From Brevibacterium yomogidense (GTDB taxonomy: Bacteria > Actinomycetota > Actinomycetes > Actinomycetales > Brevibacteriaceae): a stretch of 64,000 bases of DNA. The notes below the pieces were generated by a model. It was not told the origin of the DNA and did no database searches. It saw only the letters and a program-made list of their open reading frames with translations. The stretch lies in contig NZ_FWFF01000017.1 of the NCBI RefSeq assembly GCF_900163715.1, forward strand, positions 496,001 to 560,000, in the 5' to 3' direction. The translations under genes were made by a program, and so were the position numbers. Position 1 is the stretch's first letter. Each line of letters begins with the position of its first letter. Below are positions 50,498 to 51,809 of this stretch, in pieces.

Positions 50498-50521
50498 GTA
50501 CGCCGCCCGCTGAGGCTGGAA

Positions 50522-50554
50522 GCAACTTAATGTAGTTGCATTTTACGATGCAAC
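50522..50554. promoter_or_regulatory. Cluster of GCAAC/GTTGC inverted repeats (operator candidate)
   Basis: GCAACT-TAATGT-AGTTGC (50522-50539) and GTTGCAT-TTTACG-ATGCAAC (50535-50554) share a half-site, giving three half-sites in an unusually AT-rich stretch just upstream of the -35 box. This layout suits autoregulation by the downstream HTH protein. Confidence 0.6.
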
Positions 50555-50563
50555 CGAAAAAGA

Positions 50564-50592
50564 TTGACACGAGCTGTGATCTGCGCTTCACT
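50564..50592 (+). promoter_or_regulatory. Strong leaderless promoter (perfect TTGACA)
   Basis: TTGACA (50564-50569), a 17-nt spacer and TTCACT (50587-50592), ending 6 nt before the ATG at 50599. The only perfect -35 consensus noticed in the window. Confidence 0.65.
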
Positions 50593-50598
50593 GGGAGC

Positions 50599-51324
50599 AT
50601 GTTCGTCATGACCGTCGACCAGGTCGATTCCCGGGCTCACGCAGACGCTGTGCCGGCGCTGCTGGCGACTCTGCAGGGCGTGCCGGTGCGGCTTCCCTTC
50701 GAGCGCACCGCGGGCGACGAGGTCCAGGCAGTCCTCGAGGACCCTCGTGCGGTCGTCGACGCGTGGGAGGCCATCGTCCGCGACGGGCGGTGGAGGGTGG
50801 GCATCGGGATCGGTCACGATGTGGAGCTCGCCGACTCGAGCAGAGCCTCGCGCGGGGGGCCGTTCCTCGGAGCGCGGGACGCCGTCGACGAGGCGAAGGG
50901 ACATCCTGATCGGGTCGCCGTGCGTGTGTCGCCCTCGGTCGATGATGCGTCCCAGAGTTCCCAGAGTTCCCAGAGTTCCCAGAGTTCCCAAAGCGAGAGC
51001 CGCGGCAGCGATGCGAGCGCTGCGGCGCGCGACGCGCAGACAGTGCTCCGCCTGCTCTCGATCGTCATCGACGAGCGGACCGACGCCGGATGGCGAGTCA
51101 TCGACGCGGCGCGTGCGGCTCCGGATGCCACGCAGGCGCAGCTCGCGGATCAGCTGGGCATCACCCGTCAGGCCGTCTCGAAGGCCCTGCGCACGCACGA
51201 CGCGGTCACGGTCGACGAGGGCCTGCGCACGGCGGCGCGCCTGCTCGCCCGCACTCTCGAGCTGTGTCCCACGGGCGTGAGCATGACAGCCGCCACGACT
51301 CGTGGAGCGGAGGAGGAGCTGTGA
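50599..51324 (+). CDS. SatD-like palm-domain protein with C-terminal HTH
   Basis: 241-residue putative regulator. The N-terminal part looks like SatD-type cyclase/GGDEF-like palm folds: MTVDQVDSR at the start (a metal-binding Asp position) and AGDEVQAVL further on, then RVGIGIGHD. A Ser/Gln linker encoded by four 9-bp repeats joins a helix-turn-helix (TQAQLADQLGITRQAVSKALR). Known SatD proteins have no settled biochemistry. ATG 50599 is set by the promoter six bases upstream; a longer frame from 50536 would cross the promoter. It overlaps the membrane protein gene by one base. Inverted repeats at the promoter suggest autoregulation. Confidence 0.78.
   Translation: MFVMTVDQVDSRAHADAVPALLATLQGVPVRLPFERTAGDEVQAVLEDPRAVVDAWEAIVRDGRWRVGIGIGHDVELADSSRASRGGPFLGARDAVDEAKGHPDRVAVRVSPSVDDASQSSQSSQSSQSSQSESRGSDASAAARDAQTVLRLLSIVIDERTDAGWRVIDAARAAPDATQAQLADQLGITRQAVSKALRTHDAVTVDEGLRTAARLLARTLELCPTGVSMTAATTRGAEEEL
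50951..50986. repeat. 9-bp microsatellite-like repeat in the SatD-like gene
   Basis: CCCAGAGTT occurs four times without mismatch. The unit is three codons (SQS), so copy-number change alters linker length but not frame. Confidence 0.9.
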
Positions 51325-51809
51325 TGGGCGGAGACGTCGTCACGACCATCGCGGCGCTCGGGGTCGGGATCGTCGCCGCGCTGCTGGGCTGGCCGCTCAC
51401 GCGGCTGGTGCTCCGGGTGGCCGGCGGCCGGGACCGCGCGCGGGCTGCGCACGCTGAGGCGGACGTCGCAGAGGACTGCGCGGTCGCAGAGGAGGCGGTC
51501 GCGGAGGATGTCGAGACCGTCGGGCGGCCCACTGTCGCTGACGAGGTCGAGCCTGCCGCCGATGTCGACGACGACGGGCTCCTGCGCGGAGGGCTGTGGA
51601 TCGGACTGCTGGAGCGGGGGTTCGTCGCAGGAGGGATCGCTCTGGGGGAGCCGTCGATCCTCGCCGTGGTCGTCGCGATCAAGGGGCTGGGGCGAGTCCC
51701 GGAGCTCCTCCGCAGCCCCACGGCCGGGGAACGGTTCATCATCGGCTCGCTGGCGTCGCTCGGAGTCGCGCTGGCCATCGGCGTCATCGGCCGCGCGCTC
51801 GTCGGGTGA
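51324..51809 (+). CDS. Small membrane protein coupled to the SatD-like gene
   Basis: 161-residue membrane protein. One hydrophobic helix at 6-31, a cytoplasmic acidic linker rich in Ala, Glu and Val (about 40-85), then two helices (about 97-122 and 137-160) around a conserved-looking block: LLERGFVAGG, VVAIKGLGRVPELLR and ERFIIGSLAS. I do not know a function; similar ERFIIG membrane proteins occur in other actinobacteria. GGAGGAGGAG precedes the ATG, which overlaps the previous stop (TGATG), so the two proteins are made together. Confidence 0.8.
   Translation: MGGDVVTTIAALGVGIVAALLGWPLTRLVLRVAGGRDRARAAHAEADVAEDCAVAEEAVAEDVETVGRPTVADEVEPAADVDDDGLLRGGLWIGLLERGFVAGGIALGEPSILAVVVAIKGLGRVPELLRSPTAGERFIIGSLASLGVALAIGVIGRALVG

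Follow-up and report, generated by a model that had tools for sequence, protein, structure and literature searches.

A stretch of 64 kb from Brevibacterium yomogidense (the window) carries two overlapping genes, coding for a palm/helix-turn-helix protein (P1) and a small membrane protein (P2). The locus raises the question of whether P1 acts on the promoter of its own gene pair, and how its palm domain is connected with P2.

The gene pair and its neighbourhood

The features of the two genes are as follows.

50599..51324, plus strand: P1, putative palm/HTH autoregulator related to SatD, 241 aa (ORF, Pfam, AlphaFold, hhalign, VIA-align)
50599..50928, plus strand: predicted palm domain of P1, residues 1-110, beta-alpha-beta-beta-alpha-beta-alpha-beta (AlphaFold, VIA-align)
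50617..50619, plus strand: Asp7, putative palm metal ligand, altered in most P2-less copies
50716..50721, plus strand: Asp40-Glu41 of the GDE hairpin, putative metal ligands (conservation)
50929..50997, plus strand: P1 linker with SSQ repeats, low model confidence (ORF, AlphaFold)
50998..51264, plus strand: P1 helix-turn-helix (HTH) domain, residues 134-222 (Pfam, AlphaFold)
51166..51195, plus strand: predicted recognition helix, residues 190-199, RQAVSKALRT (co-variation, AlphaFold)
51309..51318, plus strand: Shine-Dalgarno-like GGAGGAGGAG for P2, within the 3' end of P1 (sequence)
51324..51809, plus strand: P2, small membrane protein, 161 aa, with an acidic linker and the blocks LRGGLWIGLLER and ERFIIG (ORF, conserved blocks, model)

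Both palm motifs that an earlier note on this DNA had assigned to one protein, TVDQVDSR and AGDEVQ, lie inside the 241-aa frame that starts at ATG 50599. The proposed coupling to a membrane protein is borne out by the layout: the P2 ATG at 51324 overlaps the P1 TGA (ATGA overlap), and GGAGGAGGAG stands 5 nt upstream of it. The survey of gene neighbourhoods proposed in the same note revealed that the linkage of the two genes is conserved. Matches to the P2 profile adjoin P1 in 106 of the first 110 loci, the other four being L026 and three contig ends (L067, L072, L090), and P2 lies on P1's strand in 90 of 98 further loci. Among the remaining eight, P2 was found on the opposite strand in L259 and just outside the stretch examined in L223. 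In L263, L264 and L259, the P1 or SatD-type gene adjoins P2 with the strands opposed, which means that the link persists where the two are not co-transcribed. P2 matches lacking a P1 of the window's type were examined in six genomes; three of them adjoin SatD-type genes on the same strand, two adjoin such genes on the opposite strand, and one stands alone.

The P1-P2 two-gene unit is common in actinobacteria. The P1 profile matched 203 of the 297 genomes of the order sample (74 of its 94 genera), and 89 of 296 genomes in the class sample (E <= 0.001, weak HTH-only matches included in both). In the order sample, the P2 profile matched 177 of the 297 genomes, from 66 of the 94 genera. In the window, the pair sits between the housekeeping genes truB and ribF. 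The same two genes flank it in 36 of the 110 loci examined (28 same-genus loci among L001-L030 and 8 Brevibacterium loci among L037-L116), and all 36 loci of the window's genus in this set share the truB-ribF site.

The gene order, the overlap and the multi-site operator described below resemble those of toxin-antitoxin pairs, in which case P1 would be an autorepressing antitoxin and P2 a harmful membrane protein. In an excerpt of PMC11323703, satD, the gene of a protein family related to P1, is reported as an accessory gene, and as essential by transposon mutagenesis in the S. pyogenes strains tested. An accessory yet essential gene fits a protein restraining its partner, but the S. pyogenes protein is a remote relative of P1. 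The constant truB-ribF site within the genus, the persistence of P1 copies without P2, and the scarcity of mobile relatives (none in phage records or viral contigs, one plasmid record) argue against such a pair, which we regard as improbable. The same records led us to reject a phage or plasmid origin of the locus.

Predicted folds and relatives of P1 and P2

The AlphaFold model of P1, based on an alignment of 57 sequences, has a mean pLDDT of 90.8 and consists of a palm, a flexible linker and an HTH bundle. In the VIA-align search, the model matched 5mbg with Z 10.6 (rmsd 2.2, 112 residues aligned), Rv1900c with Z 10.2 and Ma1120 with Z 10.1. It also matched other members of the same palm class, namely GTP cyclohydrolase III (Z 9.4), a GGDEF domain (Z 9.2) and a type III CRISPR effector (Cas10, Z 9.1). 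The top Foldseek matches were mycobacterial adenylyl cyclases (E 0.002, none below 0.001). This confident model shows the palm fold that had been proposed for P1, with class III adenylyl cyclases nearest at Z about 10, and the accompanying HTH is seen both in the model and in Pfam matches. Among solved structures, a search by sequence gave no palm match for P1, only HTH-type and a few chance matches. Within the linker, a 9-bp direct repeat at 50950-50990 encodes the SSQ repeats, which occur only in the window's own P1 among 17 aligned proteins.

Like P1, the class III cyclases (Rv1900c, Ma1120, OaPAC, CyaC) have an Asp both in the first strand and in the hairpin. They also share its palm fold, the best rows giving Z 10.6 to about 9 over 105-127 residues. 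By analogy, Asp7 and Asp40 are putative metal ligands of P1. Asp7, Gly39, Asp40, Glu41 and Gln43 are invariant in 179 of 179 unique P2-linked P1 proteins (some of them pattern-selected), and Arg93 is likewise present in all 179. In class III cyclases, the transition-state Asn stands four residues before a conserved Arg (N-x-x-x-R), whereas the window P1 has Phe89 four residues before Arg93 and carries an HTH in addition. With Phe apparently in place of this Asn, ordinary cyclase chemistry is doubtful, and the reaction of P1, if any, may differ from that of class III cyclases. The GG[DE]EF motif of diguanylate cyclases is absent from P1, which has AGDEVQ instead.

P2 has several blocks that are invariant or nearly so in 57 sequences (G22; LRGG..IG..ER; A.KGL.R; E.F.IG...S). 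Its model is all helix, with a pLDDT of 86.6. Foldseek found no match to it among PDB folds (best E 2.4), which does not in itself imply a new fold. Searches for a named family gave chance-level matches only in Pfam, NCBIfam and PHROGs and none in PADLOC; DUF3307, considered as the partner family, was rejected since it had no Pfam match, and the literature on it brought up one unrelated paper.

Pycsar-type systems also hold a cyclase and a membrane effector in one operon, and the shared operon of a cyclase-like palm and a small membrane protein would suit an anti-phage nucleotide system of this kind. P1-P2, in contrast, is chromosomal and syntenic within the genus, and the palm protein doubles as a predicted DNA-binding regulator. 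With PADLOC 2.0.0, only HTH-level matches were obtained for P1 and none for P2. Together with its wide occurrence (in the order sample, 74 of the 94 genera at E <= 0.001, weak HTH matches included), these observations make a Pycsar-like role very improbable.

The relation to SatD proposed in the earlier note stood at the level of profiles and fell short at the level of the Pfam cut-off. The window P1 matched the SatD family (PF16264) with 18.5 bits and E 0.0017, below the gathering score of 29 bits. At E <= 0.1, 9 of 17 aligned P1 proteins match this family, and one relative, L034, passes the cut-off with 30.1 bits. An hhalign comparison of the P1 profile with seven proteins from loci over the cut-off gave a probability of 99.7% and E 1e-25 over 189 columns, and the homology covers both palm and HTH. 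The palm model, its structural neighbours and this profile alignment indicate that P1 is a distant SatD relative with a predicted cyclase-like palm.

SatD-type proteins were found in several bacterial groups. They resemble P1 in the palm, the D...SR/SK motif of the first strand, the GDE-Q hairpin and the C-terminal HTH; those of the loci over the cut-off mostly have GDEFQ[GA] where the window P1 has AGDEVQ. As in the window, a P2-profile match lies nearby in 11 of 15 SatD loci over the cut-off (E 9e-27 to 2e-4), and one of these 11, L034, is of P1's own type. Unlike the window, the over-cut-off loci L117-L120 have no P2-like neighbour, and several partners at SatD loci differ from P2 in their extra hydrophobic N-terminal segments. 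A table in the excerpt of PMC12005413 calls SatD a DNA-binding protein. The parts of PMC10326533, PMC5786311 and PMC2904730 that were covered contain no description of this system, and no established function or mechanism of the SatD family was found in the literature examined, which was covered in part. Among openly licensed PMC papers, no account of such a P1-P2 system was found.

The promoter lattice and the recognition helix of P1

The elements upstream of P1 are listed below.

50522..50526, plus strand: half-site 1, GCAAC, in a slot of the 14-bp lattice (sequence)
50535..50539, minus strand: half-site 2, GTTGC, in the opposite orientation (sequence; TTG at -63 common to 54 of 188 promoters)
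50550..50554, plus strand: half-site 3, GCAAC (sequence)
50564..50569, plus strand: -35 element TTGACA, its TTG being the fourth lattice slot (TTG at -35 in 129 of 188 promoters)
50587..50592, plus strand: putative -10 element TTCACT (in 105 of 188 promoters, a TANNNT ends 6 nt upstream of the start)

The three GCAAC-type half-sites claimed for this promoter are all present. The window has their three-part array once, and none of 100 shuffles reproduced it. A fourth slot, the -35 TTG, is added by comparison with relatives. The array does lie in an AT-rich island: the G+C content of 50520-50575 is 38% compared with 69.3%, and only 5 of the 63,944 overlapping 56-mers of the window are as low. 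TTGACA at 50564-50569 is indeed the sole perfect copy on both strands of the 64-kb window. Shuffles lead one to expect 8.8 copies, so the single copy reflects the scarcity of the word and is no signal in itself. A TANNNT ending 6 nt before the start is the layout of leaderless promoters. In the window, TTCACT follows TTGACA by 17 nt and precedes ATG 50599 by 6 nt; this -10 element is weak, and related promoters keep the same layout, which fits the leaderless promoter that had been suggested.

Across Actinomycetota, the half-sites form a lattice of alternating orientation with dyads 14 bp apart, one of its slots coinciding with the -35 TTG. Over 103 distinct promoters, symmetric pairing gave its five top dyad peaks at -68.5, -54.5, -40.5, -26.5 and -12.5 before the start codon, with z of 6.6, 10.4, 12.1, 13.3 and 9.0, respectively. 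Lesser off-lattice peaks (z 5.1 to 6.0) were observed at -51.5, -49.5, -42.5, -40.0 and -39.0. The folded-lattice score was highest in the 14-bp register (20.3, compared with 15.6-18.0 for other shifts and 13.4 for shuffles). Since 14 bp is about 1.33 turns, three lattice steps make about four turns. Besides its positions at -35 and -63, TTG stands at -7 in 96 of the 188 promoters. Brevibacterium promoters and those with a TEQSVSR helix use mostly upstream slots, and the SPQAVSK type uses downstream ones. The threshold was the 99% null for three matching slots, and 17 of 103 training and 25 of 85 held-out promoters fell below it.

The letters of the half-site were found to co-vary with three residues of the P1 recognition helix, namely 190, 192 and 195 (Arg190, Ala192 and Lys195 in the window). 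Of the 103 training promoters, 86 were above threshold, 81 of them with a readable core. In these 81, residue 190 corresponds to the base after TTG (Q-T 31/31, E-A 19/19, K-A 6/6, P-A 14/15, R-C 5/5; among rarer types, S with two C and one T, A-A 1, T-T 1). Residue 192 corresponds to the first core base (A-T 62/62, N-T 2/2, S-C 16/17), and the base preceding the core follows residue 195 (K-G 22/23, R-G 28/38, Q-C 12/16, D-C 2/2, N-G 1/1, G-A 1). Within the window's genus, L001-L005 have Arg190 with GTTGC; in the genus's remaining loci, found within L006-L030, Gln190 goes with GTTGT or CTTGT-like sites. In permutation tests on clusters defined by the palm, residues 190 and 195 had p 0.0002 whether 62, 35 or 16 clusters were used. 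For residue 192 and its base, p was 0.12 at 16 clusters, and at 8 clusters only residue 190 stays below 0.05. The cross-controls were not clean: all three had p < 0.05 at 62 clusters, and when residue 190 was paired with the base before the core, p was 0.0004 for 35 clusters and 0.11 for 16.

For this reason we relied on a held-out test, for which the code was fixed first. It used 98 further loci with 85 new promoters, 60 of them above threshold and 54 with a readable core. Residues outside the code were skipped, which removed 8, 12 and 7 of the 60 promoters at the three positions, unreadable cores included. The predictions were right in 51 of 52, 45 of 48 and 51 of 53 cases. For proteins with less than 60% palm identity to the training set, they were right in 27/28, 24/24 and 28/28, with permutation means of 11.2, 17.7 and 27.0. 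Residue 192 adds little here because Ala is so common. The regulator-operator match thus holds in both sets, and this co-variation indicates that P1 very probably binds its own promoter. The array might alternatively belong to another regulator, the link with P1-P2 being only a genomic habit; as its letters track the recognition helix of P1 itself, both in the training promoters and in the held-out ones, we find this scarcely credible. The three-position code predicts that a single residue swap would move P1 from GTTGC to GTTGT. Since the lattice covers the -35 element and often the -10 element and the start, repression of P1-P2 rather than activation is most likely.

A wider regulon was considered and rejected, as in four relatives with a P1 close to the window's the perfect array was found only at the P1 promoter. 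Outside the window, its genome has one more perfect array of three half-sites, identically spaced and in reverse (G000:C4:601303-601335; L135 2304-2336). It lies between the converging 3' ends of UbiB/AarF-like and MetQ-like genes (named by eye), at no evident promoter, and is absent without mismatch from the four relatives searched. All six Gln-type Brevibacterium genomes searched also have a second array with up to one mismatch (L159-L161, L163, L164, G010:C4:93649). The flanks of the first five of these loci look alike, and in L160 the array is flanked by the end of a TyrS-like gene and by a YccF-like gene about 190 bp further on. This second array of the Gln-type genomes could be a second target. 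One genome has a third array without mismatch (G012:C1:2725019-2725050, L162).

Joint loss of P2, the putative metal site and the array

Of the unique P2-linked P1 proteins, 126 of 126 have Asp7 and Asp40 both intact, compared with 3 of 32 P2-less ones. Pattern-selected loci were left out of this count, because the patterns of the contig scan contained DQ or GDE. Loci L067, L072 and L090 of the first set, cut off by a contig end ahead of P2, enter the promoter counts and not those of the metal site. One set of 20 P2-less copies was hand-picked from genomes, or as second copies, without a listed P2. Among the first 27 unique P2-less proteins, two keep both Asp (L194, L251), compared with 179 of 179 P2-linked ones. 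On the tree, about four losses of P2 account for these 27. Eleven of the proteins form a clade in the Arthrobacter family and 14 another in the Brachybacterium family (family names read from organism titles and kinship codes), and L281 and L194 stand separately; since most losses fall in two clades, the independent events are few. A fresh batch of 20 was then picked from lower-scoring matches blind to residues. It contained 15 copies with P2, all intact, and five lacking it; among the latter, L302 retains both Asp and is altered at Ser11 and Gly39. The three exceptions (L194, L251, L302) thus lack P2 in the stretch examined yet retain Asp7 and Asp40; for L251, which belongs to the Brachybacterium-family clade, this is expected if P2 was lost first.

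The array follows the same direction. It was above threshold in 152 of 196 P2-linked promoters (86/102, 58/79 and 8/15 by set) and in 4 of 32 P2-less ones (0/1, 2/6, 1/20 and 1/5). This contrast is weaker than that of the metal site, because 17 of 103 training promoters, 25 of 85 held-out ones and 7 of 15 P2-linked ones of the fresh batch are below threshold. By comparison of sequences, the helix-half-site co-variation, the lattice, the gene linkage and the joint loss of P2, metal site and, mostly, array hold, and the palm site, P2 and the array look like one unit. The simplest reading of the co-loss is that the palm site acts through P2; it points to the purpose of the acidic site.

We therefore favour, with little more than even confidence, a closed-loop autorepressor unit in which nucleotide chemistry of the palm works with the membrane partner P2. 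The HTH of P1 would bind the lattice of alternating half-sites, with dyads every 14 bp, over its own leaderless promoter, and lattice-bound P1 would most likely repress transcription of P1-P2. The cyclase/GGDEF-like metal site of the palm most likely binds a nucleotide, which the palm probably makes or turns over, and the most likely role of P2 is to receive this nucleotide, or P1 loaded with it, at the membrane.

P1 may instead be a sensor without catalysis, its palm only binding a nucleotide and P2 holding nucleotide-loaded (or empty) P1 at the membrane, which would free the promoter. Membrane sequestration frees the promoters of some known repressors. Autoregulation and the co-loss of the metal site with P2 fit this equally, and the Asn expected for class III catalysis is apparently replaced in P1. 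The strict invariance of Asp7, Gly39, Asp40, Glu41 and Gln43 (179/179, some pattern-selected) exceeds the needs of simple binding, although it is not decisive, and we consider a pure sensor rather unlikely. A broader form of the favoured closed loop is put forward tentatively, as somewhat short of probable. It would be a vertically inherited, non-defence nucleotide-signalling unit in which the signal-making enzyme is itself the autorepressor bound to its promoter on a helical lattice of sites and P2 is the dedicated receptor, the whole forming one feedback loop with a readable protein-DNA code. If the palm makes a nucleotide, the pair would constitute an unrecognised signalling circuit across much of Actinomycetota.

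Two further arrangements were observed among the P2-less copies. At L194 (G275:C1:1490064-1491992), two SatD-type genes stand in tandem with no P2 within 1.5 kb, and the second has an intact metal site. In the conserved Arthrobacter-family clade of P2-less P1 proteins (L026, L247, L248, L282-L289), Asp7 is replaced by Asn and the HTH is kept; this clade is possibly a dead-enzyme regulator.
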